From: an uncultured Eubacteriales bacterium
GTDB taxonomy: Bacteria; Bacillota; Clostridia; Lachnospirales; Lachnospiraceae
Direction of reading: 5' to 3'
Assembly (NCBI GenBank): GCA_900314565.1
Contig: OMVU01000003.1
Span: 1 to 64,000, forward strand
DNA: 64,000 nucleotides
Positions 19,188 to 51,083 of this stretch are shown here, one piece after another (the first letter of the stretch is position 1; each line of letters starts with the position of its first letter). The notes below the pieces were generated by a model, which saw only the letters and a list, made by a program, of their open reading frames with translations, was not told the DNA's origin and did not search any database. The position numbers were made by a program, and so were the translations under genes.

Positions 19188-19391
19188 TTACTCCTCTTTC
19201 ATCACGTCCTCTTTCATATCATAAGGCGTCTTCAGATTGTCCTCTCTCTTCATATTGTCGAACCGCTTCACCATGAACGGTTCAAAAATATAGTATATGA
19301 ACTTCCCGTCCAGGTCATAGTAGAAGACCGCAAAGAGCGCCGCGTAGATGACCGCCAGAATGCCGAATATTTTCAAAATGAATTTCTTCAT
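19188..19391 (-). CDS. Small single-helix membrane protein of dehydratase module A
   Basis: A 67-residue protein with one N-terminal membrane helix (FILKIFGILAVIYAALFAVF) and a charged tail. The ATG follows AAAGGGGAAAC, and the gene lies 18 bases after the large dehydratase subunit gene, clearly in its operon. It visibly resembles the 55-residue protein at 27623-27790 in module B: both read IL-x-V-x4-LFAV-x4-LD-x-K, then FD-x2-K-x2-D. A related mini-protein beside each paralogous dehydratase pair suggests a conserved accessory subunit or membrane anchor. No known family was recognised. Confidence 0.8.
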   Translation of the reverse strand: MKKFILKIFGILAVIYAALFAVFYYDLDGKFIYYIFEPFMVKRFDNMKREDNLKTPYDMKEDVMKEE

Positions 19392-19409
19392 GATGCGTTT
19401 CCCCTTTCT

Positions 19410-21110
19410 TTACCAGCTGGAATCATCCTCAAAATCCAAAAGCGTGGGATCCAGCGGTTCCTCGCGCATGACTGTGATCATATAATCGCTGATGATCTTG
19501 CGGATCTCCTTTCTGGAGACCGTCCGCTTATCCGGAAGTGCATGGGGAACCCAGATTGCATGGATATCTCTCTTTCTGAATTCGTCCTCGAAGACTCCGT
19601 GGATCCCCTGCATGCCCTTGCACTGCAGCTGATCGTACATGACGACCATGTCGCATTTGAATCTTTCCATGTAGTCCCAGAGGGAGAGGATGTGCTCGTG
19701 TCCGCCGACGGCCATTGCGCGCATCGGGGCTTTCTCGTTGTACCAGGAGAGATCCTCCAGCGCATGCTCATACGTATCGGTCCTCAGGAACTGGTCGAAC
19801 ATAAGGGAGTCCATATTAATGACGCAGTTGAGGCCCCAGCAGTTATAAGCCCATGTGCACCAGCTGGAATAATAGAGCGGTGCGCAGCTCCATGCGATTA
19901 CACGGTGACGGGTCTTGGGCAGCGTGACGATCTTGTTCTTCACGGTCTTGTTCATGATCTTCCGGACGTGGGCATCGATCTCGTGCCAGATCGGCCGGTT
20001 GCCATCCTGCGAATAGTAAATACGGTAGAGCGCCTGCGCAACACCGTTGATCGGGTAGTACGGGGTGTTGGCAGCGACATCCCATTTTTCATGCTCGAAG
20101 GCGGTCAGCTTATTCTGCTCCTCGGCATACTTGCAGTACATTTCCCAGTTGAAGGGAACGCCGTACTGCTTCTCGATGAACTTCCAGCACTCCTCGATCT
20201 CCCTCTGACAGTGTTCCTGCACGAGCGGATCGTCGTAGCGCATCGGCTGAGGCATGGCGAAGAGCGGGCGGTTCAGGAACCAGTCCTGAATGACCGACGT
20301 CGCGACCGAGCCGTCGCAGGCTTCGTTGGACGTGATCATGGTCGGTGCGAAATCCGGATAATCATCCAGCACGAACAGACCGTATTCCGCCTGGCACATC
20401 GGACACGGGTCCGCCGGGAGGCCGATCGACTGCGCTGCATCGATATAGTTGAGGACCGTGTGGTTGTTGACATGGCAGGTGACGAAATAGGTGATCATCT
20501 CCAGCGGGATGTCCTCCAGCACATCGTGGAAGCCGTAGAAAATGCTGCCGCTCACGGTCTCATTGTGCGCAATATTATGCTTCCACTGTTCGCTCTCCTT
20601 CCCTCCGTGCAGTTTTTTGTCGGAGGCGAACATTTCCTGGAACTGGCGGATCGTCTCAGAGACCATGCCGCGGTAGTGCCAGGCTGAACCACGGAGGATC
20701 GGTCCGCGCATTCCCTCAAGACCGCGGTCGAACCAGTGCATAACGGTGAGGTAGGTCTGCCCCATCCAGCGATAGCGCATGAGTCCCTTCGAGAAGTTCA
20801 CGACGCCTTTGACCGGTCCGCCGCCGTACTTCATGATGTCCGTGACCATGTGCGCGTAGTTGTAGAGCCAGATCATATTGAAATAATACATTGTATCGAC
20901 GAAACCGCGCCACTCTCTGTGCTTGTAGAGACCGGTGTCACCGACATAGAGATCTCCGAGCCGTCTCTCCTCATGGGGCTTGCCGTACCAGAAATCTCGG
21001 GCGATCTTTTTTATATCTTTTTTGCCTTCCTGCTGATTCTCCGGCTTCTCCACGACGAAGAGTTCCTTCATCTTTTCCCGGACGATCTTCGCTTTATTTA
21101 AAATCTTCAT
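19410..21110 (-). CDS. 2-hydroxyacyl-CoA dehydratase-like large subunit, module A
   Basis: A 566-residue member of the HgdB/FldBC/BcrBC iron-sulfur family. The C-terminal two thirds match the dehydratase fold; possible [4Fe-4S] ligands are in ADPCPMCQAEYG, SNEACDGSVATS and MYDQLQCKGMQG. About 150 N-terminal residues before this are extra compared with classical subunits of roughly 380-430 residues. It ends MREEPLDPTLLDFEDDSSW, nearly identical to the end of its paralogue at 24880-26661. Its start overlaps the stop of the partner gene by 4 bases (ATGA), so the subunits are translationally coupled. Family chemistry is ATP-activated, radical dehydration or reduction of acyl-CoA; the substrate here is unknown. 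Confidence 0.85.
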   Translation of the reverse strand: MKILNKAKIVREKMKELFVVEKPENQQEGKKDIKKIARDFWYGKPHEERRLGDLYVGDTGLYKHREWRGFVDTMYYFNMIWLYNYAHMVTDIMKYGGGPVKGVVNFSKGLMRYRWMGQTYLTVMHWFDRGLEGMRGPILRGSAWHYRGMVSETIRQFQEMFASDKKLHGGKESEQWKHNIAHNETVSGSIFYGFHDVLEDIPLEMITYFVTCHVNNHTVLNYIDAAQSIGLPADPCPMCQAEYGLFVLDDYPDFAPTMITSNEACDGSVATSVIQDWFLNRPLFAMPQPMRYDDPLVQEHCQREIEECWKFIEKQYGVPFNWEMYCKYAEEQNKLTAFEHEKWDVAANTPYYPINGVAQALYRIYYSQDGNRPIWHEIDAHVRKIMNKTVKNKIVTLPKTRHRVIAWSCAPLYYSSWCTWAYNCWGLNCVINMDSLMFDQFLRTDTYEHALEDLSWYNEKAPMRAMAVGGHEHILSLWDYMERFKCDMVVMYDQLQCKGMQGIHGVFEDEFRKRDIHAIWVPHALPDKRTVSRKEIRKIISDYMITVMREEPLDPTLLDFEDDSSW

Positions 21111-22300
21111 TTCGCGGCACCTCCCTGGATCTTTTTGATCTCCAGGCTCTCGACAAACGCCTGGAAACGGGTCCGAAGCTGTCCGACAGCATTATTGACG
21201 TATTCCTTTTCGATCGAGCAGACCGGGATACCGTAGTCTCTCGGCATGATCAGTGTGTCGATTGTTCTCTCATAGCTCCAGTATTCACAGAATTTCATCT
21301 GGCAGATGATGATTCCGTCCGCCTTGTACTCCTTTGCCACATCCGCAAGATATTTTTTGCGCTCGCGCATCGTGTGCTGTTCCATGAAGCGCGGACACAT
21401 GGACGTCTCCAGATAATGGCGTGCGATGGCCCGGAGCGGGGTCTCATTTTCCCCGACAATGATATCCTCACGCCCCGGAATGGAACCGTAGCAGTGGCGG
21501 TCCGCCACGACGAGCGCCCCGCACTCTTCAATCAGCTGCACGAAATACGGATCGTCCTCCTCGGAACCCGTCAGGACGACCTTGCACTTGTAAGCCGGCT
21601 TTTCATCCGGTTCGCGGGTCTTAAGATCCTCGGCGATCTCACGGAGCTGGTCGATGATCAGGTGCTTCGGACATACCTGCGTGACGAGCTGAATGATGGA
21701 AAATTCCGTACCGGTGATCGTCGGACGGTCCAGCTTTCTGTAGCTTCCGATCTCCCGGATCAGCCGGCACACCTCATTGTGCTCGCGGATCGCGGTCAGA
21801 AGTGCCTCGTCAGAGGTATCGATCCCGAAATGCTCCTCGAGCTTGTCAAGAACATGGGCCCTGAGCTGTTTTTCGTAGTGGTCGATGGAGTTCTCGTTCT
21901 TCTTAAACGGAACATCCGTGAATTCGCAGAAGAAATCCGGATTCTGGATGATATCCATGAGCTGCAGGTGCTCCTGGAACCGGCACGTGACCGTACAGGT
22001 CTCCGTCGCCATCTGCGCGTCCAGGAAATTAAAGCCGCCCTCGAGTGCGCGCTCTAAGAGACACCGCCCGTAGAGGCAGGTCCGGTTCGACATATAGTAC
22101 GTCGCCATGTCCGGTGAGCCGCTGCGGGGAGCGCGAAGGCGCACGGAAAAGCATCCGGGAAGATCAAGCAGGACCTCCGGCATGAAGTAGCAGGTGTAGC
22201 CCAGGGCACGAAGCCCCTCTTCTTTGCCCCGGCGCACATATGAGTTATAGGCTTCCTGCAGCAGGTCCTCAAATTCGATGATGTGCTTCAGATCTTTCAT
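21107..22300 (-). CDS. 2-hydroxyacyl-CoA dehydratase-like small subunit, module A
   Basis: A 397-residue HgdB/BcrC-type subunit. Visible landmarks are GYTCYFMPEVLL near residue 36, LRAPRSGSPDMATYYMSN, GALVVADRHCYGS and the late cysteine motif GIIICQMKFCEYWSYE that ligates the [4Fe-4S] cluster in this family. The start at ATG 22300 has AGGAGAG upstream and gives MKDLKH, matching the paralogue at 23685; longer in-frame extensions upstream have no counterpart. It is the first gene of a leftward operon (small subunit, large subunit, mini membrane protein), transcribed away from the CooC-like gene. No activator gene is in this half; the one at 26767 probably serves both pairs. Confidence 0.87.
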   Translation of the reverse strand: MKDLKHIIEFEDLLQEAYNSYVRRGKEEGLRALGYTCYFMPEVLLDLPGCFSVRLRAPRSGSPDMATYYMSNRTCLYGRCLLERALEGGFNFLDAQMATETCTVTCRFQEHLQLMDIIQNPDFFCEFTDVPFKKNENSIDHYEKQLRAHVLDKLEEHFGIDTSDEALLTAIREHNEVCRLIREIGSYRKLDRPTITGTEFSIIQLVTQVCPKHLIIDQLREIAEDLKTREPDEKPAYKCKVVLTGSEEDDPYFVQLIEECGALVVADRHCYGSIPGREDIIVGENETPLRAIARHYLETSMCPRFMEQHTMRERKKYLADVAKEYKADGIIICQMKFCEYWSYERTIDTLIMPRDYGIPVCSIEKEYVNNAVGQLRTRFQAFVESLEIKKIQGGAAK

Positions 22301-22725
22301 AAGTACTCTCCTATTGTAAAGCCAGCCGGAAAAAACACGCCTCCTCCTGACGGACTGCCCGGGAGACTGCAGATTCCGGCACAGAAACCATTTCCCATAA
22401 GACAGGCAGATCACGCTGTACGATGTACGCAGTATTGTCTTTCTTTTGCGTATACAACGTGCACGGCGTGCACGGACGGCACTGCGTAAAGTCGCCTGAA
22501 ACGGGCTTTGTAAAGATTTTAGCATAATTGATGATACAATAAAATATTTCCCGAAAAATTATTAGGCAATATTTTATTTGTTCTTCCAATTTTATAACAT
22601 TCACTTGTATGTTGTGCATAATTGTGTTTGAATATAGACAGGGAATTTTGACTTTTATTACAAATCTCCGTCATTCGAAGATTCCAGTTTTCTAAATTTT
22701 CAGACATCCGGAGGACACCCTCACC
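22301..22725. promoter_or_regulatory. Divergent control region between module A and the CooC-like gene
   Basis: About 425 bases without a credible gene. The right part is very AT-rich. One leftward promoter candidate reads TTGCCT-17-TATTTT (22541-22569). Around 22455 the sequence GTGCACGGCGTGCAC forms a direct and inverted repeat of GTGCAC that could bind a regulator. No riboswitch was recognised. Confidence 0.4.
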
Positions 22726-23487
22726 ATGGATACAAAGAATATCGTAATCGCCCTGACGGGCAAGGGCGGCGTTGGAAAGACCTCTCTTTCCGCCTCGTTC
22801 GTCCGCATTCTCACAGAAAAAAAACCGGAGGCCCGCATTCTCGCAATCGACGCGGATCCTGCGATCGGCCTGTCCGTCGCGCTCGGCGTTGAGGTCACGG
22901 AGACGCTCGACGAGATCCGCCGCCGCATTGCGGAGGATGTGACGGGAAAGCTCAAGGACACGGAGAACATACTGGCCGAAGCGCGTTTCCGCCTTTTTGA
23001 CGCGATGAAGGAGACAGACGGGTTTGCATTTCTCGCAATCGGCCGGCCGGAATCCGCAGGCTGCTACTGCGCAATCAATACCTATCTCCGGCAGGTCATC
23101 GGTCTTCTGGTAAATGATTTCGATTATGTCGTCATCGACGGCGAGGCCGGGATCGAGCAGATCAACCGCCGTGTCCTCGAAAAGGTCACGCATCTCGTCT
23201 GCGTATCCGACCAGAGCCGCAAGGGACTTTCCATCATCAAGACGATAAAGGAAGTCTCGGACCGTCTCGTCATGTACGACGAGATCGGACTCATCGTGAA
23301 CCGCGCGCCGATGCCCGACCGCATTCCGGAGAGCGAGGAGCTGGGTGTTCCGGTCCTCTCCGTCATTCCGCAGGACAACGGCATGACGGAAAATGATATC
23401 GAAGGCCGCAGCATTTTCGAGCTGCCGGCTGACTCCCCGATCCTGAAAGGTGCGGAGGACGCACTTTATAAGATGCATATTTTATAG
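22726..23487 (+). CDS. CooC-like nickel-insertion ATPase (MinD/ParA fold)
   Basis: A 253-residue deviant-Walker P-loop ATPase. Walker A is GKGGVGKT at residues 12-19, the switch region carries AIDADPAIGLS, and DYVVIDGEAGIEQ is Walker B. A Cys-x-Cys pair (GCYC, Cys113 and Cys115) sits almost exactly where CooC1 of Carboxydothermus binds nickel between subunits (Cys112/Cys114), which is why I call it CooC-like rather than a plain ParA protein. Known CooC proteins insert Ni into the CODH active site. The gene stands alone between two divergent dehydratase modules; no CODH gene is in the window. A MITE-like element follows at 23535. Confidence 0.85.
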   Translation: MDTKNIVIALTGKGGVGKTSLSASFVRILTEKKPEARILAIDADPAIGLSVALGVEVTETLDEIRRRIAEDVTGKLKDTENILAEARFRLFDAMKETDGFAFLAIGRPESAGCYCAINTYLRQVIGLLVNDFDYVVIDGEAGIEQINRRVLEKVTHLVCVSDQSRKGLSIIKTIKEVSDRLVMYDEIGLIVNRAPMPDRIPESEELGVPVLSVIPQDNGMTENDIEGRSIFELPADSPILKGAEDALYKMHIL

Positions 23488-23534
23488 GAACTGATTCAGC
23501 TCTGATCCATTAAAGAAAATCCGGTCCGTTTACC

Positions 23535-23657
23535 ACAATTTTGCGAAGCTCTGCGCGGAATGTAATTGTGTGAACAGTTCAAACTATCTGCACACGGAAG
23601 CCGTTTGAATGTTCATACAATTACCATGAATCACAGACTTTCGCAATAATTACGGGA
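23535..23657. mobile_element. MITE-like nested palindrome (B)
   Basis: About 120 bp: outer arms TTTTGCGAAGCTCTG and CAGACTTTCGCAATAATT, inner arms AATTGTGTGAACAGTTCAAAC and GTTTGAATGTTCATACAATT. The flanks are near-identical 11-mers, GTCCGTTTACC at 23524-23534 and GACCGTTTACC at 23656-23666, consistent with a target-site duplication. It separates the CooC-like gene from module B. Confidence 0.75.
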
Positions 23658-23684
23658 CCGTTTACCCATGAAAGGAGGAATAGC

Positions 23685-24875
23685 TTGAAGGACCTGAAAC
23701 ACCTGCTGGAATTTGAGAACCTGCTGGAAGACGCGGCGAATCCGCTGATCCGGCAGGCGCAGGCAGACGGACAGTACGCAGTCGGCTACACATGTTATCA
23801 CATGCCCGAAGTGCTGCTCAACGTCGACAACTGTTTTTCGACCAGAATACGGGCACCGAGAAGCGGCTCGATCGACATCGCAACGTACTACATGTCCAAC
23901 TACACCTGCGAGTACGCCCGCTCTCTTCTCGAGAGAGCAATCGAGGGCGGATATGAGTATCTCGACGCGATCGCCGGCGTCGACGCATGTTCCGCCATGA
24001 ACCGCTGCTACGAACACATGGAGATTCTGAAATGCAATACGAAGCCTCATTTCTTCGTGACGCACACGGATGTCCCCTACAAGATCGAGGAATACACGAT
24101 CGACCAGTTCGAAACACAGATGCGGCTCCGGCTTCTCGACGTCATGCACGAAAAATTCGGCACGGACACTTCCGACGAAGCGCTGATCAAAGCCGTGCAG
24201 GAGCACAATGAAATGTGCAGGATCATGACCGAGATCGGCGAATTCCGGAAAATGGACAACCCGCCGGTGACCGGCTATGAATATCACGTACTCTGTCTTG
24301 TCTCCTACTGCTGTCCGACGAAGCTCATCACTCCGCTTCTCCGCGAGACACTGGAGGAAATCAAGACCCGCGAGCCGGATCAGAAATGTCCGTACCGCGC
24401 ACGTGTTGTCGTCGCGGGTTCTGAAGTCGATGATCTTGACTTCACCAGACTCCTCGAGGAGGCCGGCGCGCTGGTGGTCGCCGACCGCTACTGCTACGGT
24501 TCAAAGCCGGGCCGCGAGGAGATCATACTGAACGACCACGAAGATATCCTCCGCCAGATCTGCCGTCATTATATGAAGACCTCGGAGTGCGCGCGCTACA
24601 TGGCTGCGGACAAGATCCAGCAGAGGCGCGACACCATCGATCAGCTCGCAAAGGATTTCCGGGCGGACGGCATTATCTTCGAACAGATGAAATACTGCGA
24701 TTTCTGGGCATTTGAGCGGCCTCTGGCAAGCCACATCCTCGCGGAAGAATACGGATGGCCGGTCCTCTCCATCGACCGGTCCTACAACGTCCGCAACTCC
24801 GGACAGCTGAGGACCCGTTTCCAGGCATTTGTCGAAGCCCTTGAGATCAAGAACATCCAGAAGGGAAGGAGGTGA
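23685..24875 (+). CDS. 2-hydroxyacyl-CoA dehydratase-like small subunit, module B
   Basis: A 396-residue paralogue of the product of 21107-22300, alike over its whole length: GYTCYHMPEVLL, IRAPRSGSIDIATYYMSN, GALVVADRYCYGS and GIIFEQMKYCDFWAFE. The start is TTG at 23685, preceded by AAAGGAGGAATAGC. This gives MKDLKHLLEFENLL, matching the ATG-started paralogue, so the TTG is well supported. Only 4 bases separate it from the large-subunit gene. As in BcrC/FldC proteins it should carry a [4Fe-4S] cluster and pair with the large subunit. Confidence 0.88.
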   Translation: MKDLKHLLEFENLLEDAANPLIRQAQADGQYAVGYTCYHMPEVLLNVDNCFSTRIRAPRSGSIDIATYYMSNYTCEYARSLLERAIEGGYEYLDAIAGVDACSAMNRCYEHMEILKCNTKPHFFVTHTDVPYKIEEYTIDQFETQMRLRLLDVMHEKFGTDTSDEALIKAVQEHNEMCRIMTEIGEFRKMDNPPVTGYEYHVLCLVSYCCPTKLITPLLRETLEEIKTREPDQKCPYRARVVVAGSEVDDLDFTRLLEEAGALVVADRYCYGSKPGREEIILNDHEDILRQICRHYMKTSECARYMAADKIQQRRDTIDQLAKDFRADGIIFEQMKYCDFWAFERPLASHILAEEYGWPVLSIDRSYNVRNSGQLRTRFQAFVEALEIKNIQKGRR

Positions 24876-24879
24876 CACC

Positions 24880-26661
24880 TTGTCGGCAAAATATCCGGAT
24901 CCGAAGTTTTTCCGCTTTAAGGATCATATCAACTGGAAAGCACAGGCGGATAATATTAAGGAGATCGGCGGCATCGTCGCGGAGCTCCTCAAGGAGACAG
25001 ACTGGAAGGATGTCGGCAAAGCGACCGCCGGAGACATGAAGGCGTTCGCAAAACGCGTTTCCTATGAAGCCTCACTGCTCAGAAAAATGTCCGCCGCAGA
25101 GAAAAAGGACCTCCTTCTGAACGGGGAAAAGCAGCTCGGAAAGCTCTATCGCTCCGGGAAAATGGCGACCGTCCGCCGCGAATGGAGAGGTCTCAAGGAC
25201 ACGGGCGTCGATTTCTATGAATGGTGCAGGATGTGGGGCATGCTGCTTGCGACATTCAGCAAAGACCTCATTCCGGCCCTGGGCGGCGCAGTCCACTACC
25301 GCTGGATGATCTCTTATTTCTGCTGCCACAGCTTTATGGATAAGAATACGCTCGGCCTCCGCGGCAAAGCGCTCAAAATGCACCACGAGCTGATCTACGC
25401 GATCTTCCGCTATGTCGCCGAAAATCTCGTCCTCCTCATGAAGGGCGACGAGAAGGTGGGCAACAGTGTCGACCTTTCAAAAAAGGTCGTCCTGCTCGAC
25501 GAGATGACGATGGCCCAGATCATGGCCGGTTTCCCGGACCTGGTCGGCATCCCGTATCAGCTCATGCCGGTCTTCCTCCTCTCCGAGATCGACCAGCTGG
25601 CCTGTGAACCCTATATCGACGCGGTCGAATCATACGGCCTGCCGTCAGATACATGTCCGGTCCCGACCTCTGAGTGCGGAGCCTGCGTGGTAGATGCTCT
25701 TCCGCATCTCGGAGCCTGCTTCATCTCAAGCTCGATGCCCTGTGACGGCTCGGTCATGGCATCGTCCTACACGTCAAGGCGGTTCAAGGATCTTCCGACC
25801 TTCCACCTCGCCTTCCCGGTGCGCTACGAGGACGAGTCGATCATCGACAATGCTGTCAAGGATATCAAGGCCTGCATCAAGTTCATCGAGGATCAGACCG
25901 GTGCAAAGTGGAACTGGGACGCTTACTTCGCTGCAATGAAGCGGTTCAACGAAGAGACAAAGTACGAGCTCCGCAAGTGGGAAGTCAACCAGACGCCTTA
26001 TCCGCAGCTCATCGGTCCCTGCTACGAGCTCTTTCGTAAATGGAATTATGAAATGGACGGCGGAATCGACCCGCGCATCCTGAAGACCTTCAACAAGGTC
26101 GACCGCCTGATGATGCAGGCGTACGAGAAGCGCGAGGAGCCCTGGCGCGGAAAGATGCGTCACCGGGCGATCGTCTGGTCCGTACCGGCCCACTATTACG
26201 CGAACTTCTCGAACTGGCTCGCCAACTGCTGGGGCATCAACGTTCTCGTCGAGATGGAATCCCTGAACTTCACGAAGCCTCTCGAGACGGAGGACAAGGA
26301 GGAAGCTCTCCGGGATATGGCGCGTCTCTATGAGAGAATGGTCATGCGGCGCCACACGAACGGCGGCTATGATCACGTACTGACAGAGCTCTGGCGTCAG
26401 GTCGAAGCCTGGAAGCCCGACATCGTCATCATGTACCAGCATGTCTCCTGCAAGAATATGTCGACCCTGAACGGTCTCTTCGAAGATCAGGCGAGGGAGC
26501 GCGGCGTGCGCCTCATCTGGATCGAGCACGACCTGATGGATCCCCGCACAGTCTCGAGGAAAGACATGCGTTCCAAGGTAAATGAATACATGCGCACTGT
26601 CATGCGCGAGGAGCCGCTCGATCCTTCGCTGGTGGATTTTGAGGACGACGCTTCCTGGTAA
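24880..26661 (+). CDS. 2-hydroxyacyl-CoA dehydratase-like large subunit, module B
   Basis: A 593-residue paralogue of the 566-residue module A subunit. Cysteine-bearing segments are CPVPTSECGACV, SSMPCDGSVMASS and MYQHVSCKNMST; the end MREEPLDPSLVDFEDDASW matches module A almost exactly. The N-terminal extension of about 170 residues shares the REWRG motif with module A and has no equivalent I know in classical dehydratases. I start at TTG 24880, which has AAGGAGGTG just upstream; an ATG-started frame from 24829 would lie inside the preceding gene. The gene precedes the activator gene by about 105 bases. Substrate unknown. Confidence 0.86.
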   Translation: MSAKYPDPKFFRFKDHINWKAQADNIKEIGGIVAELLKETDWKDVGKATAGDMKAFAKRVSYEASLLRKMSAAEKKDLLLNGEKQLGKLYRSGKMATVRREWRGLKDTGVDFYEWCRMWGMLLATFSKDLIPALGGAVHYRWMISYFCCHSFMDKNTLGLRGKALKMHHELIYAIFRYVAENLVLLMKGDEKVGNSVDLSKKVVLLDEMTMAQIMAGFPDLVGIPYQLMPVFLLSEIDQLACEPYIDAVESYGLPSDTCPVPTSECGACVVDALPHLGACFISSSMPCDGSVMASSYTSRRFKDLPTFHLAFPVRYEDESIIDNAVKDIKACIKFIEDQTGAKWNWDAYFAAMKRFNEETKYELRKWEVNQTPYPQLIGPCYELFRKWNYEMDGGIDPRILKTFNKVDRLMMQAYEKREEPWRGKMRHRAIVWSVPAHYYANFSNWLANCWGINVLVEMESLNFTKPLETEDKEEALRDMARLYERMVMRRHTNGGYDHVLTELWRQVEAWKPDIVIMYQHVSCKNMSTLNGLFEDQARERGVRLIWIEHDLMDPRTVSRKDMRSKVNEYMRTVMREEPLDPSLVDFEDDASW

Positions 26662-26766
26662 AGAAAATACAGGCAGATGACAGCATCTGCATCCGGCATG
26701 TTTAATCTGTATCTGACATAACGATTAAGACAAGAACATAAGTATGTTTAGGAGGATAAAAGAACT

Positions 26767-27570
26767 ATGAAATATTTCGGCGGCTGTGACGTAGGCTCTA
26801 CATACACCAAGGCAGTCATTCTGGACGAGAACGGAAAGATGGTTGCCGACACCACACTGAAAAGTAAAATCATCGCCCGGGAATCCGCCGAGCTCGCCAT
26901 GAAGGAAGTCATTTCCCAGGTTCCGGATCTCGAGAAGCCTGAAGACCTCGCTTACCTGATCGGTACCGGCTACGGGCGCAACAAAGTCCCCTTCGCGGAT
27001 GAAAATGTATCCGAGATCTCCTGCCATGCGATGGGCGTTCATATCACGAACCCGACGGTCAAGGCGATCATCGATATCGGCGGACAGGACGTCAAGGGCA
27101 TCGCCATCGACACGGACGGAACCGTCAAGAACTTCGCGATGAATGACAAGTGCGCTGCGGGAACAGGACGCTTCTACGAGGCGATGGCCCGTTCCTTCGA
27201 GATGACGCTCCCCGAATTTTCAAAGCTCTCTCTCACCGCGAAAAATGTCATTCCGATCACCGCGCAGTGCACGGTCTTCGCTGAATCCGAAGTCATCACG
27301 CTCGTCGGAGAGGGCAAGCCGATGAACGAGATCGCAGCCGGCATCCAGATGGCTGTCGCAAAGAGATGCTTCGTCATGGCGAAAAAGGCAGGCGCAACGG
27401 ATTCCATCACACTGACCGGCGGCTGCGCAAAGAACAGCGGCTTAAAGGCTGCGATCGAGCGCGTTCTGAAGCTGAAGGTCGTGGAATTAAAGACCGACCC
27501 GCAGCTCATGGGTGCTCTCGGAGCGGCTGAATTTGCCCGCCAGAAGGGGCTTGCCAAGGCCTCCCGCTGA
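26767..27570 (+). CDS. Acyl-CoA dehydratase activator ATPase (HgdC/BcrAD/BadFG family)
   Basis: A 267-residue ASKHA-fold ATPase, the right length for the archerase that injects one electron into dehydratase or reductase subunits at the cost of ATP. Phosphate-1 motif DVGSTYTKAV is at residues 8-17, IIDIGGQDVKG lies near residue 100, and the two cysteines that share the [4Fe-4S] cluster between subunits are in NDKCAAGTGRF and ITAQCTVFAESEV. The adenosine motif LTGGCAKNSGLK is near the end. AGGAGG precedes the ATG. It is the only activator in the window, so it probably serves both dehydratase modules. Confidence 0.95.
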   Translation: MKYFGGCDVGSTYTKAVILDENGKMVADTTLKSKIIARESAELAMKEVISQVPDLEKPEDLAYLIGTGYGRNKVPFADENVSEISCHAMGVHITNPTVKAIIDIGGQDVKGIAIDTDGTVKNFAMNDKCAAGTGRFYEAMARSFEMTLPEFSKLSLTAKNVIPITAQCTVFAESEVITLVGEGKPMNEIAAGIQMAVAKRCFVMAKKAGATDSITLTGGCAKNSGLKAAIERVLKLKVVELKTDPQLMGALGAAEFARQKGLAKASR

Positions 27571-27622
27571 GAGAAGGCAGTTTGAATAACGTAAAAACCT
27601 TTAATAACGAGGAAACGATCGA

Positions 27623-27790
27623 ATGAAAACACTTTTTAAACTCATTCTGACAATTATAAAGATCCTTACCGTTGTCCTCGGTGTTCTTTTCGCCGTATAT
27701 TTCTGGAATCTCGATCAGAAACTCATGGCGTGGGCATACACACAGGTCAACAATATCTTTGACAGAAAGAAGCAGGATCTGAACTTCTGA
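27623..27790 (+). CDS. Small single-helix membrane protein of module B
   Basis: A 55-residue protein (MKTLFKLILTIIKILTVVLG...), below most gene-finder cutoffs. One membrane helix is followed by LDQKLMAWAYTQ and a charged FDRKKQDLNF tail. The ATG follows GAGGAAACGATCGA. It lies between the activator and the ACS-like gene in one operon and resembles the 67-residue protein of module A: ILTVVLGVLFAVYFWNLDQK aligns with ILAVIYAALFAVFYYDLDGK. The repeated association with both dehydratase pairs argues that it is a real gene and a partner of these complexes. Unknown function. Confidence 0.75.
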   Translation: MKTLFKLILTIIKILTVVLGVLFAVYFWNLDQKLMAWAYTQVNNIFDRKKQDLNF

Positions 27791-27811
27791 TATCTCTCTT
27801 TGGTAACTGCC

Positions 27812-28528
27812 ATGAAATTATATGATTCAATTATAAAAAGTACGGGTGAGATCCTGGCACAAAAGGAAGGCATGCGCTTCCCCTACGATCGTTCCCGCGT
27901 CTGGAAAAATCTCGGAGAGAGCGAGCTCATCATGCGGCGGGACGCCGCGTTCGAGCTGGGCGGCCAGGGACAGCCTTCCGTCAATTACACCTGTGTTACG
28001 ACGTCAGGGCTGATCACAGAAGATGAGGTATATGTCTACGGCCCGGATCTTCCGGACATCCGGGCCGATGTCCCGTTCGCGAAAATAGTCTTGCTGGAGA
28101 CGAACGATCTCGGGGAATCCGAGGACGAGGAGAAGGCTTACGGGACGATCAGGAACATCGAATTCGTCCGCTACCATGTCTTCCCGGTCGGATACATGGT
28201 CCGGGTCTCCGCGCAGAGCAACGAGGAGCAGGTCCGGGTCAGCAAAAAAGTCATCAATTCCGGTATCCGCTTCTCCTATGTAGGGGCAGCCTATATCAAA
28301 AAATACAGGGCGCTTCCGGAAGTCCGGCATGTACGCATCATCTTTATCACGGATGGAGAACTGGTCGAAAAGCTCATGCCCTATGCGGGCAAAGTCGACG
28401 GTATCACGCGGACGCTGACGCACATTCTGGACGGTCTCCCGACAGACTGCGGACACTGTACCATGAAGGCTGTCTGTGACGAGGTGGAAGGGATGCGGGA
28501 GCTGCACCTTAAGCAGAAAAAGGGCTGA
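27812..28528 (+). CDS. Stand-alone acetyl-CoA synthase central-domain-like protein
   Basis: About 238 residues. Comparison from memory with the AcsB/CdhC beta subunit shows parallel order: AAFELGGQGQPS against the ACS VEFGGPKTPAFE region, VYVYGPDLPDI against VEVIGPDIDSV, a central YMVRVSAQSNEEQVRVSKK against WVRISKEAF, VRHVRIIFITDGELVEKL against VDRVQVTIYTDEQKVLEL, then CGHCTMKAVC against the CLLCQSFAPTHVC motif. It ends there, so the A-cluster (Ni-Ni-[4Fe-4S]) domain of ACS is missing. The ATG at 27812 has a weak ribosome site but follows the mini-gene by 21 bases. Possible roles are CoA or metal binding for the dehydratase complex; both are inference. Confidence 0.7.
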   Translation: MKLYDSIIKSTGEILAQKEGMRFPYDRSRVWKNLGESELIMRRDAAFELGGQGQPSVNYTCVTTSGLITEDEVYVYGPDLPDIRADVPFAKIVLLETNDLGESEDEEKAYGTIRNIEFVRYHVFPVGYMVRVSAQSNEEQVRVSKKVINSGIRFSYVGAAYIKKYRALPEVRHVRIIFITDGELVEKLMPYAGKVDGITRTLTHILDGLPTDCGHCTMKAVCDEVEGMRELHLKQKKG

Positions 28529-28547
28529 CAACAAATAAACAGAAAAA

Positions 28548-28592
28548 CCGCGTTATACAGCAGACAATCATACAGTCTGCTATATAACGCGG
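28548..28592 (-). terminator. Terminator between module B and the CooT-like operon
   Basis: Stem CCGCGTTATA-CA-GCAGAC paired with GTCTGC-TA-TATAACGCGG, 9-base loop. Leftward reading is followed by TTTTT, so it ends the CooT-like operon; it probably also limits the rightward module B transcript. Confidence 0.85.
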
Positions 28593-28616
28593 TCAGGGGC
28601 TTTCATGCAGCCGGCT

Positions 28617-28802
28617 TTATTCATCGACGCGGATCTCGATCTCGTTCTTCTCAAAGTCTGTCGATACGATCGACCCCTTTATTTCCCGGACAGATCCGAA
28701 AAGATCTCTCAGACGGATGATGTCACCATCGACCTCGATCCGGCTGGTGTTCGACATGAGAAGAGAGTGATCATCCTTGCGGTATGCATTGGAAAGACAC
28801 AT
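28617..28802 (-). CDS. CooT-like nickel-binding protein
   Basis: A 61-residue protein starting MCLSNAYRKDDHS. CooT of Rhodospirillum rubrum is a similarly tiny beta-rich protein beginning MCMAKV, whose Cys2 binds Ni(II) in the homodimer; the Met-Cys-hydrophobic start, the IEVDGDIIRLRDLFG turn and the final IVSTDFEKNEIEIRV strand all fit. I start at the ATG at 28802 (GGGAGGGTTAAT upstream), which puts the cysteine at position 2 as required. It lies one base after the His-rich gene and is translationally coupled to it. It probably assists nickel delivery together with the CooC-like protein. Confidence 0.82.
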   Translation of the reverse strand: MCLSNAYRKDDHSLLMSNTSRIEVDGDIIRLRDLFGSVREIKGSIVSTDFEKNEIEIRVDE

Positions 28803-28803
28803 A

Positions 28804-29214
28804 TTAACCCTCCCCGCACTCATTGAGTGCTTTACTTAACAGTTCGTTGCCTGAACGATACGCATTGAGAGCTTCATCGATAAGCCCCGCTGCTTTTTCT
28901 CTTCCTTCAGCGCGAAGAGCAGCCGCGAGTTCGACGAGCTCCTCCGCATGATGCATATTATGATCATACATATACCTGAGAAGGATCACATTGCGGTCTG
29001 CAGGTCCGTCTGCGGGAATATCGTGTGTATGATGGCCGTGATGACCGTGATGTTCATGTCCCTCATCCGATCCGTGATGGTGGTGATGACCGTGATGCTC
29101 ATGGCCTTCGTCCGGTCCATGATGGTCATGATGTTCATGGTGCTCATGTCCGCCATCCGGCAGTACCTGCTCATTATCAGTTGTAATCTTGTCCTGTTCA
29201 TCGAAACAGCTCAT
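28804..29214 (-). CDS. Histidine-rich metal-binding protein (CooJ/HypB-tail-like)
   Basis: A 136-residue cytoplasmic protein with a central run of about 25 histidines in three imperfect repeats of DEGHEHHGHH type (roughly residues 22-65), followed by an alpha-helical domain (NVILLRYMYDHNMHHAEELVELAAALRAEG). Such tracts store or deliver Ni or other soft divalent metals in CooJ, HypB and SlyD. I start at ATG 29214, which has GGAGGGGG upstream; a longer frame to 29265 lacks support. It is the first gene of a two-gene leftward operon with the CooT-like gene, which points to nickel. It is not homologous in any obvious way to CooJ outside the His tract. Confidence 0.8.
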   Translation of the reverse strand: MSCFDEQDKITTDNEQVLPDGGHEHHEHHDHHGPDEGHEHHGHHHHHGSDEGHEHHGHHGHHTHDIPADGPADRNVILLRYMYDHNMHHAEELVELAAALRAEGREKAAGLIDEALNAYRSGNELLSKALNECGEG

Positions 29215-29492
29215 CGCAATACCCCCTCCGCTCCGGGCGGTCAGTTCCTGTTCCACTTTGCTCATACATCTGACGACGGAAATAAAAGAATTCCGCGTCA
29301 GAGATCATACAACGGTTCATTTTGAAAGCTGCTCAGGCAGCAGCTTATAAAACGAACAGCGCTGCATCTGTTTTTCATTTGACAAGCAGCGCATCGGCAG
29401 CTGTTTGAAAGCGTGCATATTATTCGGACCTCAGGAGATCCGGTCCGATCTTATTATAGCAGTACCCAGTTTCTTTATAAAGGAGGATTTCA
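29215..29492. promoter_or_regulatory. Divergent promoter region, His-rich protein / flavin reductase
   Basis: About 280 bases. A perfect 7-bp inverted repeat TCGGACC/GGTCCGA with an 11-base spacer (29423-29447) lies just upstream of a TATTAT box (about 29450), an operator-like placement for the rightward gene. A TTGACA occurs near 29390 without a well-spaced -10. The 19-bp motif AATTCCGCGTCAGAGATCA at 29289-29307 recurs at three other intergenic sites. Confidence 0.45.
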
Positions 29493-31556
29493 ATGAAAGC
29501 ACAATACGACCCGCTCTTTACCCCATGGAAGATCCGGGATCTTGAAATCAAGAACAGGATCGTCCTCGCTCCGATGGGCGGGACCTGTATCTTTGGGTGG
29601 ATGGAGCCCCTGGGCAGCCATTTTGACTACGAGGCCGCCCGTCTCCTCATGAATATCGCAAAGTCCGACTGCGGACTGGTCATCCCGGGAATCGCTCCCG
29701 TAAAGGACATGCTCGGCGGCAAGTGGCTCTATCAGAATAAGCGCAAATTCAAGGAGCTCAAGGCTTTCATGGATGAGTTCCACAAGACCGGAGCGAAAAT
29801 GTTCATCCAGATGACCGCCGGCTTCGGCCGCTCAATGGCGCTCACCGCTCCGCTGGCCATGCTCGCAAAAAATAAAGTCCTGAATAAGCTCGCAAGCCCG
29901 ATCATCGACGCGGAGTATCTGACGGCAGCACCCAGTGTACTGCCGAACCGCTGGGCAGACGACGTCATGACAAGGCCTGTCACCGTGAAGGAGATCGATG
30001 ATATCGTCTACGCCTTCGGCGAAACAGCCCGCCTTATTAAGGAAGCCGGCGTCGACGGCGTTGAAGTCCATGCAGTCCATGAAGGCTACCTGCTTGACCA
30101 GTTCACACTGCCCTACTCCAATAACAGGACCGACGAATACGGCGGATCCTTCGAGAACCGCTACCGCTTCGCCATCCAGATCATCAATGAAATCAAATCA
30201 AAGTGCGGGGAGGACTTCCCTGTCTCGCTCCGCTATTCTGTCCGCTCCATGACAAAAGACTTCCGGTACGGCGCTATGCCGGGCGAAGATTTTGTGGAAA
30301 TCGGCCGTGACATGGAGGAATCCGAGAAAGCAGTCAAGTACCTGCAGGATGCAGGCTATGACATGCTGAACTGCGACAACGGGACCTACGATGCCTGGTA
30401 CTGGGCACATCCGCCGCAGTATATGCCGCAGAACTGCAACCTCGAGGACGTCGAGCACATTAAGCAGTTCGTCGATATTCCGGTCGTCTGCGCCGGACGT
30501 ATGCAGCCGGCTGTCGGAGCGGAAGCGATCCGCGACGGAAAGATCGATGCGATGGCCGTCGGACGCCAGTTCCTTGCGGATCCTCACTGGGTCACAAAAC
30601 TGATCCGCGGACACGAAGAGGATATCCGCCCCTGCATCTGCTGCCATACAGCCTGCTTCAACCTGACAAAGCACAACGGATCCGCCAACGATCAGGATCT
30701 GTCAGAGTCCGCCGGCATGTGTCACTGTGCCGTCAATCCGATCTCCATGCAGTCGAAGAAATACTACATCCGCCCGGCCAAAAAGCAGAAGACCGTGGCT
30801 GTCATCGGCGGCGGAATCGGAGGCATGGAGGCTGCCCGCATCCTTACCCTTCGCGGCCACAAGGCTGTGATCTACGAGAAGAGCGACTGTCTCGGAGGCA
30901 TTTTCATCGCTGCTGCAGCGCCTGAATTCAAGGAGAAGGACAAGGAGCTCATCAGCTGGTTCAAGCACCAGATCGACAAGCTGGGTATTGAAGTCCATCT
31001 GAACACGGAGGTCACGCCCGAGGATATTCCGGAAGCTGATGAGATCATCGTTGCGACCGGCGCCGCTCCGAACCGTATTCCGATCCCGGGAGCGAGCGAG
31101 TACGCGATGGACGCCACAGAATATCTTCTTGGCGAGAAGGAAGTCGGCGACAACGTCGTGATCATCGGCGGCGGTCTGACGGGCTGTGAGATTGCGCTTG
31201 ACCTGTTCAGAAAGGGAAAGCATCCCGCTATCGTGGAAATGAAAGACGACCTCATCGCCGTCAAGAATATGTGTCTCGCAAATACGAGCTATCTGCGCGA
31301 CTGCTTCAAGACCAACAAGGTTCCGGTCTACCTGAACGCCGGCGTAAAGAACATCTCGGAGACAGAGGTCTCTGTACAGACGAAGGACGAAGGGATCGTC
31401 ACGCTGCCGGCTGACAACGTCATCATGTCCGTCGGTTATCATCCGATGCCGCTCAAGGAGGCTTCGGAGCATGTCCACCTGCTCGGCGACTGCAGCAAGG
31501 TCGGAAATGTTCGCTCAGTCATCTGGGGCGCATGGGATATTGCGATGAAGATCTGA
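29493..31556 (+). CDS. Fe-S flavin enoate reductase (2,4-dienoyl-CoA reductase / BaiCD-like)
   Basis: A 687-residue old-yellow-enzyme multidomain reductase. Residues 1-370 form the FMN TIM barrel (PWKIRDLEIKNRIVLAPMGG; then EGYLLDQFTLPYSNNRTDEY). Next come the [4Fe-4S] cysteines in CICCHTAC and a further CHCAVNP, the FAD-binding VAVIGGGIGGMEAARIL near residue 430, and a second nucleotide site VVIIGGGLTGCEIALDL for NAD(P)H. Family members reduce dienoyl-CoA, cinnamate-type enoates, bile-acid intermediates or trimethylamine. The gene begins after AAAGGAGG and ends at a clean terminator. Lying next to the dehydratase/nickel cluster, it could reduce the enoyl product of dehydration; this link is only positional. 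Confidence 0.92.
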   Translation: MKAQYDPLFTPWKIRDLEIKNRIVLAPMGGTCIFGWMEPLGSHFDYEAARLLMNIAKSDCGLVIPGIAPVKDMLGGKWLYQNKRKFKELKAFMDEFHKTGAKMFIQMTAGFGRSMALTAPLAMLAKNKVLNKLASPIIDAEYLTAAPSVLPNRWADDVMTRPVTVKEIDDIVYAFGETARLIKEAGVDGVEVHAVHEGYLLDQFTLPYSNNRTDEYGGSFENRYRFAIQIINEIKSKCGEDFPVSLRYSVRSMTKDFRYGAMPGEDFVEIGRDMEESEKAVKYLQDAGYDMLNCDNGTYDAWYWAHPPQYMPQNCNLEDVEHIKQFVDIPVVCAGRMQPAVGAEAIRDGKIDAMAVGRQFLADPHWVTKLIRGHEEDIRPCICCHTACFNLTKHNGSANDQDLSESAGMCHCAVNPISMQSKKYYIRPAKKQKTVAVIGGGIGGMEAARILTLRGHKAVIYEKSDCLGGIFIAAAAPEFKEKDKELISWFKHQIDKLGIEVHLNTEVTPEDIPEADEIIVATGAAPNRIPIPGASEYAMDATEYLLGEKEVGDNVVIIGGGLTGCEIALDLFRKGKHPAIVEMKDDLIAVKNMCLANTSYLRDCFKTNKVPVYLNAGVKNISETEVSVQTKDEGIVTLPADNVIMSVGYHPMPLKEASEHVHLLGDCSKVGNVRSVIWGAWDIAMKI

Positions 31557-33475: not shown

Positions 33476-34474
33476 TTACCCGTTCTGGGCCTGCACCGCC
33501 GTCATCGCGGCAGTATTGACGATATCTTCCACAGAGCAGCCGCGCGAGAGGTCATTGCACGGCTTCTGCAGCCCCTGAAGCACGGCAAAGCAGTCCGCCC
33601 CACCAATCCTCTGCGTGATTTTATAGGCGATATTGCCTGCCTGCAGATCCGGGAAAATGAGAACATTGGCTCTTCCGGCCACCGGACTTCCCTTCGCTTT
33701 TCCGGCTCCGATCTCCGGCACGATCGCTGCGTCGAACTGCATCTCCCCGTCCAGAAGAAGATCCGGCGCAATCCTGTGCGCAATCTCCACCGCCCGCTGC
33801 ATCTTTGAGACCGACTCATGCTTCGCGCTTCCCTTCGTGGAGAAGGACAGCATGGCGACACGCGGCTCGGCAACTCCGCAGAGCGTGCGGGCCGTATCAG
33901 CCGCAGCCACCGCGATGTATGCCAGCTCCTCTTCCGTCGGGCTCGGCACGACCACGCAGTCTGCGTAGACGAGAAGGCCGTCCTCCCCAATTTCCTTATT
34001 CGGGCAGTCCATGAGGAAGCTCGACGAGACGATCTTCATTTCCGGCTTCGTCTTGATGATCTGAAGCGCCGGCCGCAGCATATCCCCGGTAGTGTGCACC
34101 GCTCCGGACACCAGTCCGTCCGCATCCCCGCACTTGACCATCATGATTCCGAAATACATCGGATCTTTGGCGACTTCTGCCGCCTTCTCGCGGGTCATTC
34201 CTTTCATTTTTCGAAGCTCATACAGCGTCTCCGCATACTCCGAAAATTTTGCATCGAACTCCGGATCCACGATGCGGATACCTGTGAGATCGGCATGAAG
34301 CTCCTCCGCCTCCCGCAAAATGTCCTCCGGCTTTCCCAGAAGGACAGGATCCGCTATCCCTTCAGCTTTAAGGATCGCGCAGGCTTTGACGGTACGCGGT
34401 TCCAGGCCTTCCGGAAAGACGATCGTCTTTCTGTCCGCGCGCGCTTTCTCCTTTATTCTCTCAATCATGCTCAT
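33476..34474 (-). CDS. pta: Phosphate acetyltransferase
   Basis: A 332-residue short-type Pta interconverting acetyl-CoA and acetyl phosphate. Family motifs include KTIVFPEGLEPRTVKA near the N-terminus, DPMYFGIMMVKCGDADGLVSGAVHTTGD in the middle, SSSFLMDCP and GRANVLIFPDLQAGNIAYK near the C-terminus. This pattern fits Pta better than the shorter phosphate butyryltransferase. I start at ATG 34474 (MSMIERIKEK); longer frames upstream are not conserved. It is transcribed behind the butyrate kinase gene, 139 bases away. The usual partner would be acetate kinase, so the pair may have broad acyl-phosphate specificity. Confidence 0.92.
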   Translation of the reverse strand: MSMIERIKEKARADRKTIVFPEGLEPRTVKACAILKAEGIADPVLLGKPEDILREAEELHADLTGIRIVDPEFDAKFSEYAETLYELRKMKGMTREKAAEVAKDPMYFGIMMVKCGDADGLVSGAVHTTGDMLRPALQIIKTKPEMKIVSSSFLMDCPNKEIGEDGLLVYADCVVVPSPTEEELAYIAVAAADTARTLCGVAEPRVAMLSFSTKGSAKHESVSKMQRAVEIAHRIAPDLLLDGEMQFDAAIVPEIGAGKAKGSPVAGRANVLIFPDLQAGNIAYKITQRIGGADCFAVLQGLQKPCNDLSRGCSVEDIVNTAAMTAVQAQNG

Positions 34475-34511
34475 CTTTATATACCTCGTTACTTTCACAG
34501 GAAGATCTTCC

Positions 34512-34529
34512 GGTCTCGCTTGCGAGACC
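34512..34529. repeat. Palindrome with 2-base centre
   Basis: GGTCTCGC-TT-GCGAGACC in the buk-pta spacer; same format as the palindrome at 10870-10891. Confidence 0.6.
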
Positions 34530-34613
34530 CGAAACATTCTGATGCATGAACAAGTCTCTGCCTTTAATGACCGCTGCCACAGCACAGAGTGCGGCACTTC
34601 ACCGGACGTTCGA

Positions 34614-35729
34614 TCAGAGATCGATCCCCGGGAACCCTTCCCAGACATTCCTGCCTGAGTAAGTCATGGCTGTACGTTCCCCTTTAAGAGCCTGCAGCGT
34701 CGGGATCGCCATCGCCTCCTGCTCCATTTCTCCCGGATAAACGCTGATCGGTGCAATGAATCCGCAGCGCTTTTCAATTCCTTCCGTAATATCCGAAAAA
34801 CGCATAAGCCCGCCGGTAAGCAGGATCGCGTCGACCTGTCCGCAGAGGACTGTGCTCATCTCTCCGATCATCTTGCAGATCTGGTAGATCATGGTATTCC
34901 AGACGAGACCTGCCTTCTTATCTCCCTCCTCCACGAGCGCATGGATCATATCGGAATTTGCAGTGCCGAAAAACTGGACAAATCCTCCGGAACGCGCGCA
35001 CAGAAGACGCGTCTCTTCCAGTGAGTGTGTCTCCAGATAATCGAGGAGCGAGAGCACGGGCACCGAGCCGATCCTGGTCGGTGTGAAAGCACCCTCTCCG
35101 TCCGCGCCCATATTTCCGTCGACCATGCGTCCGTGGTCATGCGCGCTGACTGTAATTCCGCCGTCGATGTGGGCGACGATAAAATTGCAGTCCTCGTACC
35201 GCTTTCCGATCGTCCCGGCATGGTACTCCGCCACCGCCTTCTGATTCAGGACATGTGAGTGCGAAATGCGGTAAATTCCCTTCACACCCGTGAGTCTGGC
35301 ATAGTCGCCATACTCGTCCACGTTGGTCGGATTGAGCGTGTAGGCGTCCTTCCCGTACTTCTGCGCAAACGTCCAGGCGATCATGACGCCGAGCTTGGCC
35401 GGATGCTCTGACCCGCCCACTGCGGCGACTGTATCGTCGTATAATTTCTGATCGATCTTCGTGAGACCGCCGGGCTGCGTGCAGGCGCTGCCGCCGCGTC
35501 CGACGAAGGCATCGATTTCATACGGATCCACCTTCTCTTCCGCAAGCATCTTCAGGATGACATCGCATCGGAAAGGAAGCTGATCGTTCACATGGGGGAA
35601 CTTAAGAAGCTCCGGCGCGTCATGGAACAGATTTCTCTCGAACAGCTCCTCCTCGTCGAGAAAGAGGCTGACTTTCGTAGATGTCGAGCCCGGGTTGATA
35701 ACTAATATTTTAAATTTCCTGTCGGTCAT
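34614..35729 (-). CDS. buk: Butyrate kinase
   Basis: A 371-residue acetokinase-family kinase making ATP and a short-chain fatty acid from its acyl phosphate. The phosphate-1 loop VINPGSTSTKVSLF starts near residue 10, FVGRGGSACTQPGG follows at about 84, HIDGGITVSAHDHGRMVD near 190 and the adenosine motif ILLTGGLM near 300. GRGG and HIDGG are the butyrate/branched-chain kinase versions; acetate kinase has different text there. Length is close to the usual 355. It heads a leftward buk-pta operon, implying fermentation of an acyl-CoA with substrate-level phosphorylation. Confidence 0.93.
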   Translation of the reverse strand: MTDRKFKILVINPGSTSTKVSLFLDEEELFERNLFHDAPELLKFPHVNDQLPFRCDVILKMLAEEKVDPYEIDAFVGRGGSACTQPGGLTKIDQKLYDDTVAAVGGSEHPAKLGVMIAWTFAQKYGKDAYTLNPTNVDEYGDYARLTGVKGIYRISHSHVLNQKAVAEYHAGTIGKRYEDCNFIVAHIDGGITVSAHDHGRMVDGNMGADGEGAFTPTRIGSVPVLSLLDYLETHSLEETRLLCARSGGFVQFFGTANSDMIHALVEEGDKKAGLVWNTMIYQICKMIGEMSTVLCGQVDAILLTGGLMRFSDITEGIEKRCGFIAPISVYPGEMEQEAMAIPTLQALKGERTAMTYSGRNVWEGFPGIDL

Positions 35730-48571: not shown

Positions 48572-48585
48572 TTGTCATCCTCCTG

Positions 48586-50987: not shown

Positions 50988-51054
50988 ATAAAAGCCCCTT
51001 TCTTTGCAACAACAATTTACCTCAGCATGGTTGGTTGCACAAATATCTATCATA

Positions 51055-51083
51055 AATATACCCGCAAAATGGAATTTTAACAA
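51055..51083 (-). promoter_or_regulatory. Promoter of the hydCBA operon
   Basis: Leftward TTGTTA (51078-51083), 17-base spacer, TATATT (51055-51060), about 70 bases before the hydC start. Confidence 0.7.

Follow-up and report, generated by a model that had tools for sequence, protein, structure and literature searches.

The locus described here raises the question of why genes resembling those for CooC, CooT and CooJ, which are known from the operons of carbon monoxide dehydrogenase (CODH) (PMC6006190; PMC13056359), should be packed around two pairs of genes for subunits of the benzoyl-CoA reductase (BCR)/2-hydroxyacyl-CoA dehydratase superfamily. It lies in a stretch of 64,000 nucleotides from an uncultured Eubacteriales bacterium of the Lachnospiraceae (assembly GCA_900314565.1, contig OMVU01000003.1, positions 1–64,000), which we will refer to as the window and which belongs to contig 160 in a genome of 4.2 Mb assembled in 191 contigs. 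An earlier note on this DNA had suggested that these genes encode either a CoA-linked reductase or dehydratase with a nickel-containing component, or a maturation island for a CODH/acetyl-CoA synthase (ACS) system encoded elsewhere. The first of these suggestions proved to be the better supported, although its nickel component is one that we only infer. The reading that we hold to be probable, with modest confidence, is that the block encodes an ATP-driven iron-sulfur (Fe-S) reductase of the above superfamily, present in two paralogous copies and accompanied by a CooC/ACS-like module for its maturation or activation, in which the metal is probably nickel.

The block extends from 19188 to 29265 and consists of two divergent small/large subunit pairs, both subunits of which match PF06050, together with genes for an activator and for CooC-like, ACS-like, CooT-like and His-rich proteins. 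The frames of the pairs given in the earlier note (19410–22300 leftward and 23685–26661 rightward) were all recovered, and its other assignments held when examined by family models, sequence comparison or composition: the single activator and the protein resembling the central domain of ACS score over the cut-offs of TIGR00241 and PF03598, respectively, the best relative of solved structure for the CooC-like ATPase with its Cys-x-Cys is a CooC (3kje), the CooT-like protein starting with Met-Cys is recognised by PF10133 and has a conserved start at 28802, and 26 of the 153 residues of the His-rich protein are His. One gene, for the 55-aa membrane peptide at 27623–27790, was absent from its list. 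The features of the region, including the flavoenzyme gene that follows the block, are as follows.

19188..19391, minus strand: peptide of 67 aa with a single hydrophobic stretch (a hydrophobic 19-mer), downstream of large subunit A
19410..21110, minus strand: large subunit A, 566 aa, predicted [4Fe-4S] type, extended at the N-terminus by about 200 residues (PF06050, E-value 2.6e-25, from residue 219)
21107..22300, minus strand: small subunit A, 397 aa, BzdN/double-cubane type as predicted (PF06050, 1e-89)
22726..23487, plus strand: CooC-like P-loop ATPase with Cys-Tyr-Cys (best solved relative 3kje)
23685..24875, plus strand: small subunit B, 396 aa, TTG start (PF06050, 2.9e-91; its six Cys align with BzdN and DCCP)
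~24880..26661, plus strand: large subunit B, about 593 aa, TTG start presumed (PF06050, 5.8e-36)
26767..27570, plus strand: ASKHA-type ATP-dependent activator, 267 aa (TIGR00241, 215.5 bits, over cut-off)
27623..27790, plus strand: peptide of 55 aa with a single hydrophobic stretch and the motif VYFWNLDQK, similar to the 67-aa peptide at 19188–19391 on the minus strand
27812..28528, plus strand: stand-alone ACS middle-domain protein with a C-terminal C-x2-C-x5-C-x9-H (PF03598, over cut-off)
28617..28802, minus strand: CooT-like protein, Met-Cys start at 28802, the start being taken from an alignment (PF10133, 5.4e-15, 55.9 bits)
28804..29265, minus strand: His-rich protein, 26 His in 153 residues, CooJ-like by composition only
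29493..31556, plus strand: flavoenzyme of BaiCD/old yellow enzyme (OYE) type, 687 aa (PF00724; NF041087 below cut-off)

The PF06050 scores amount to 302 and 307 bits for the small subunits and to 90 and 125 bits for the large ones. Peptides of the same profile as the 67-aa peptide stand directly after the large subunit in other units as well.

The linkage of the nickel-type genes to the dehydratase-like pair is real, and its recurrence in dozens of loci makes the arrangement more than chance. A scan of named genomes yielded at least 592 candidate stretches, at least 413 of which encode a relative, and the best 80 loci were kept. Conservation of gene order, a check that the earlier note had called for, was tabulated for the 50 of these named loci that have at least 6.4 kb of upstream DNA, the 30 with too little being excluded. 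The order CooC, small subunit, large subunit, activator, peptide, ACS-like protein is kept in 39 of the 50, and in 44 when the peptide is not required. Over all 80 named loci, profile matches were obtained for the ACS-like protein in 80, the membrane peptide in 71, the activator in 68, the large subunit in 62, CooC in 55, and the small subunit and the OYE-type enzyme in 53 each; CooT-like and His-rich genes were each found in 32. In 37 of the 39 complete named loci, a BaiCD/OYE-type gene follows the ACS-like gene at no more than 4 kb or precedes it at no more than 8 kb. The carriers among the 80 loci are Lachnospiraceae, including many Butyrivibrio, and also Oscillospiraceae, Ruminococcaceae and one spirochaete, and the nearest named relatives of the window's ACS-like gene, among the matches listed, are from metagenome-assembled genomes (MAGs) of Clostridia and Lachnospiraceae. 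The ACS-like protein is present in 30 of 397 genomes of the family. In a sample of 100 family genomes, the window's own included, this protein and the large subunit (profile matches at E ≤1e-60) were found in identical sets of 12 genomes, for which the chance is about 1e-15 by our own arithmetic, kinship being ignored.

The large subunit is present in several copies in some genomes: nine near-full-length copies were found in one genome (G860), eight and a split one in another (G863), and three in the genome of the window. G860 and G863 are among 12 genomes picked by hand, 11 of which encode the large subunit; in 11 of the 12 the locus as retrieved had shown none, and one (that of L106) had another gene order. 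Thirteen of the 20 stretches around extra copies have a large subunit with no match to the activator or the ACS-like protein; in one of these 13 (L243) a match to the CooC profile lies about 4 kb away. The peptide directly follows the large subunit in eight stretches around extra copies. Usually, then, a single module serves one reductase unit or several of them. A TetR-type regulator is found nearby in six of the 20 extra-copy stretches (L243, L245, L248, L251, L258, and L261), and such paralogues may be substrate-induced. The third small/large pair of the window's genome is located at 8775–11535 of L013 (contig 86), where none of the surrounding frames of at least 100 aa reads as CooC, activator or ACS-like protein.

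The known occurrence of CooC, CooT and CooJ in CODH operons (PMC6006190; PMC13056359) lends some plausibility to the other suggestion of the earlier note, by which the block would serve the maturation of a CODH/ACS whose genes lie elsewhere in the genome. Searches of this genome with PF03063, PF03598, TIGR01702, and NF040764 revealed neither a CODH (cooS/acsA) nor a full-length ACS (acsB) in the 191-contig assembly. The single match to PF03598 is the ACS-like gene of the window, and those to PF03063, which comprise three full proteins and one fragment (L002, L003, L004, and L005), score far below the CODH cut-off and appear from their N-terminal Cys motif to be of the hybrid-cluster type. By our own reading, two of these four adjoin ferredoxin-like genes. 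CODH scored over the cut-off in two, and a full ACS in one, of the 12 family genomes that carry the ACS-like gene. The CODH of G056 is barely over the cut-off (478.7 versus 478 bits). Genome G026 has a CODH, an ACS and the system described here. Its CODH/ACS operon occupies a different contig and includes two separate CooC-like genes; in a tree, the latter fall outside the group of 32 CooC sequences from the operons under study with 99/94 support, the two outgroup rows both being long branches. In relatives the nickel-type genes were found to adjoin PF06050 pairs, which is the opposite of what the earlier note had named as grounds for its refutation, namely a normal place beside CODH/ACS with no linkage to the dehydratase pairs. 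The maturation island is contradicted for this genome unless its assembly misses a CODH/ACS; it was rejected, and we regard it as scarcely credible.

A related explanation is that the operon is itself a non-canonical CODH/ACS, and so the missing enzyme of CODH-active Lachnospiraceae such as ‘Ca. Galacturonibacter soehngenii’, for a MAG of which CODH activity and labelled acetate have been reported with no CODH/ACS genes (PMC7000372). The occurrence of nickel-chaperone-like and ACS-like genes in Lachnospiraceae that mostly have no detected CODH/ACS agrees with this explanation. However, strong tandem matches to the corrinoid iron-sulfur protein (CFeSP or CoFeSP; E <1e-30) were found in only one of 30 carriers of the ACS-like gene and in three of 30 genomes without it (a further nine, of which five are carriers, reach the PF03599 cut-off solely through matches of 25–30 bits within 800-aa proteins and were not counted), and the ACS-like protein has no Cys-Gly-Cys nickel site. 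Evidence of another kind comes from a divergent branch of the system in the order to which G259 belongs, where a stand-alone ACS-like protein is present in six of 71 genomes, four of which also have a match of full-length ACS size. In this branch CooC follows the ACS-like gene in all six cases, and the three loci with enough DNA (L168, L194, and L195) all contain two acyl-CoA dehydrogenases, a large subunit and at least two ASKHA proteins. These acyl-CoA dehydrogenases and the co-resident ACS speak against a replacement for CODH/ACS, which we judge to be very improbable, and the divergent loci favour a substrate of the acyl-CoA type for the family at large. Proteins of 230 and 599 aa with no Pfam match are also encoded in one of these loci (L168:8599–19258), and the larger one has relatives in the other two. 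ACS-type chemistry with a corrinoid protein was rejected, as 29 of the 30 carriers of the ACS-like gene have no strong CFeSP match, and a corrinoid link through the cobT-like gene at 18003 was dropped because no cluster labelled cobT appeared among the neighbour families present in at least four loci.

The subunits themselves resemble those of known Fe-S reductases. Six Cys residues of the small subunit are kept in all 72 sequences compared and in seven of seven sequences of an alignment that includes the divergent group, and they align with Cys residues of BzdN and of the double-cubane cluster protein (DCCP). The clusters of BzdN and BzdO have been described, with a catalytic His131 in BzdO; six Cys hold the [8Fe-9S] cluster of BzdN, and the same is reported for DCCP (PMC11971306). 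In the large subunit, three Cys of the [4Fe-4S] type are kept in 89 of 89 sequences; two of them align with DCCP and one with MbdO, BzdO itself having given no alignment. A Ser located three residues after the second Cys is invariant in the 34 and the 11 large subunits that were aligned. On this basis, ligands for an [8Fe-9S] cluster are predicted in the small subunit and for a [4Fe-4S] cluster in the large one. An additional Cys (in NCWG) and a His of the large subunit were also considered as a universal nickel site, which was rejected since they are absent from the divergent group and hence not universal (the slice from L248 was out of frame and excluded from this comparison). Residue counts given here and below include one or two duplicates, since L026 is the same locus as L040 and L106 overlaps L261; the duplicate-free totals are 71 small, 87 large, 45 CooC, and 68 ACS-like sequences. 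Alignments with the window were obtained for 61 of 75 usable ACS-like sequences from the named loci and for 33 of 76 large subunits.

In the CooC-like protein, a deviant Walker A motif (GKGGVGKT) and the Cys-x-Cys are both present. Comparison with the solved CooC 3kje gave an E-value of 2.6e-12 and placed Cys-Tyr-Cys on Cys-Tyr-Cys, and the Cys-x-Cys is kept in all 45 relatives counted, which do not include the window's own protein, and in six of six divergent homologues (GCYC is present in L191). CooC-1 binds nickel or zinc at the place of the Cys-x-Cys (PMC6006190). The present protein is a candidate nickel binder and inserter. The CooT-like protein combines its PF10133 match with a Cys at position 2, and for the His-rich protein no family model was matched at a meaningful score in searches of the Pfam/NCBIfam type, nor was a CooJ model among the matches. 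These proteins can also be explained with no nickel at all, if the CooC-like and ACS-like proteins mature or repair an Fe-S cluster, e.g., [8Fe-9S], or handle zinc or cobalt, and the CooT-like and His-rich proteins store metal. Consistent with this, the P-loop family of CooC includes Fe-S ATPases (weak matches of NifH and ParA/Mrp type were seen), nickel-binder-like genes occur in just 32 of the 80 loci, and CooC-1 binds zinc (PMC6006190). On the other hand, an [8Fe-9S] protein was formed in E. coli from a plasmid carrying bzdNO (PMC11971306), so that this cluster needs no dedicated CooC there and the job of the CooC-like and ACS-like proteins is probably not the assembly of the double cubane; furthermore, the units repeatedly have CooT-like and His-rich genes as neighbours and, in rare cases, HypA/HypB genes. 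An explanation in terms of Fe-S repair or other metals is thus considered unlikely, though it deserves to be kept in mind.

Compared with a profile of 28 full-length ACS, the ACS-like protein gave a probability of 97.2 and an E-value of 3.4e-11, which identifies its middle domain as homologous to the ACS middle domain; a stretch, VRVSK, is common to both families, and the ACS-like profile, when run on 398 genomes of the phylum, also matched proteins of ACS size. A C-x2-C-x5-C motif with a His ten residues on is kept in 69 of 69 ACS-like proteins, and its three Cys are present in six of six divergent homologues. CoA and CoFeSP are reported to contact the middle domain of ACS (PMC12289521), and by analogy a CoA- or partner-binding role of the ACS-like protein is possible. 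These contacts, the VRVSK stretch in both families and the three invariant Cys would also suit another role for this protein, that of a catalytic or CoA-binding partner having an Fe-S(-Ni) centre of its own, to which the small and large subunits and the activator would act as an ATP-driven electron donor. Such a donor would be comparable to the reductive activators of corrinoid proteins or of methyl-coenzyme M reductase. However, the presence of several large subunits versus mostly one ACS-like gene fits a shared helper better, and a catalytic role for the ACS-like protein seems to us quite unlikely.

A second link with nickel may, by analogy, exist for a few of the units. In five of 118 loci surveyed, 116 of them distinct, an IsrA-like flavoprotein is encoded beside small/large units, with HypA in four of the five and HypB in one. 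IsrA is a putative isoprene reductase of Acetobacterium wieringae with HypA/HypB neighbours in a genome that has no NiFe hydrogenase (PMC10134865); the label ‘IsrA-like’ is based upon domain layout and HypA/HypB neighbours and not upon comparison with IsrA itself. Four of the IsrA-like neighbours are frames of 934–971 aa and that of L245 is known only from a tblastn match. The window also encodes, at 58878–61688 on the plus strand, a 936-aa NAD/FAD/Fe-S flavoprotein to which the five are 52–58% identical, four of them at 52–55%; none of the frames flanking it that were translated, short upstream frames not being among them, reads as HypA.

Based upon membership of this superfamily, ATP hydrolysis by the activator would drive low-potential electrons into the small subunit, with its predicted ligands for a double-cubane [8Fe-9S] cluster, from where they would pass to the [4Fe-4S] site of the large subunit and reduce the substrate there. 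CooC and the ACS-like protein would most likely load nickel into the ACS-like protein, or by way of it into the reductase, with the CooT-like and His-rich proteins as optional nickel binders of the module. The membrane peptides would tether the units, and one module would usually be shared by one to several small/large pairs, probably differing in substrate. We infer that the metal is nickel, the direction of its transfer, the tethering to the membrane, the difference in substrates, and an acyl-CoA or olefinic nature of the latter. As a bolder and more tentative proposal, which we put forward as a possibility rather than an expectation, the system may be an unrecognised class of nickel-iron-sulfur enzymes, in which CooC and the ACS-derived protein insert nickel at a BCR-like active site or close to it and up to nine paralogous units per gut genome act upon different substrates.

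Several observations weigh against a nickel-supported reductase with a shared module. Nickel in the system is a prediction from sequence, and CooC-1 of Carboxydothermus binds zinc too at the same site (PMC6006190). The ACS-like protein has neither the fourth A-cluster Cys nor the Cys-Gly-Cys nickel site, both of which are present in 28 of 28 reference ACS. As the profile alignment covers only the middle domain and its Cys motif lies outside, kinship of this motif with the A-cluster Cys can only be presumed, and the His of the motif is replaced in four of six divergent homologues. Fewer than half of the named loci have CooT-like genes, and the same holds for His-rich genes, whose profile may also match unrelated His-rich proteins; the HypA/HypB/IsrA-like neighbours are limited to five of 118 loci. 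The core order was not seen in six of the 50 loci (L087, L105, L106, L107, L111, and L112), no large subunit was found in the genome of L112, one of the 12 picked by hand, and G855 has two ACS-like genes (L093 and L255), so that one module per genome is not a strict rule.

We recognised no description of this gene combination in the open-access literature, which leaves subscription papers mostly outside, and the available text of two papers on CODH operons and DCCP (PMC13056359; PMC7306483) does not mention the gene set. One scan of viral contigs with one protein revealed no viral relatives. A conserved gene set of rumen and gut bacteria, in genomes mostly without CODH, may point to a new kind of nickel-supported chemistry. 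To our knowledge, no member of the BCR/2-hydroxyacyl-CoA dehydratase superfamily is known to need nickel, and its presence in the system would make this more than a variant of a known reductase type. If the conserved linkage to CooC and a part of ACS reflects such chemistry, it would extend the small number of known nickel enzymes by a further chemistry, reveal how parts of ACS have been reused, and provide gene handles for unexplained reductions in the rumen and gut; the genes are also testable candidates for the Lachnospiraceae reported with CODH activity but without CODH genes. Elsewhere in the window, on the minus strand, a NuoE/NuoF/HydA-like set at 46808–51083 presumably encodes an electron-bifurcating [FeFe] hydrogenase, and a phosphate acyltransferase and acyl kinase pair is present at 33476–35729, which we take to be of the Ptb/Buk or Pta/Ack type.

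Among known systems, class I BCR of the bzd type (BzdNOPQ) shares with the present one two PF06050 subunits and one or more ASKHA ATPases, with six Cys for [8Fe-9S] in one subunit and three for [4Fe-4S] in the other. It differs in that the BzdN equivalog model of NCBIfam gives only 85–88 bits here against a cut-off of 454, and in that the site of the catalytic His131 of BzdO appears to be a Ser (the equivalence being drawn via DCCP). The large subunit here also has an extension of about 200 aa, the present system further includes CooC, membrane peptides and the ACS-like protein, and there is one activator in the window but two in the divergent operon of L168. With DCCP and its reductase, the system has in common the six Cys aligned with the small subunit and an ATP-dependent activator, whereas the NF040772 scores are 136–142 bits against a cut-off of 350 and two unlike subunits are present. 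The isr operon of A. wieringae likewise places Ni chaperones by a putative anaerobic C=C reductase, and IsrA-like genes adjoin some of our units, but IsrA is a flavoprotein and not a PF06050 reductase. The ACS-like protein shares with AcsB/CdhC a homologous middle domain followed by a Cys cluster, which is C-x2-C-x5-C instead of the C-x2-C-x8-C-x9-C of ACS, and it has no N-terminal domain. Lastly, a CooC relative with Cys-x-Cys and a member of the CooT family with a Met-Cys start are shared with the CooC/CooT/CooJ systems of CODH, whereas most carriers of the present genes have no detected CODH and the genes are tied here to a reductase of another superfamily.

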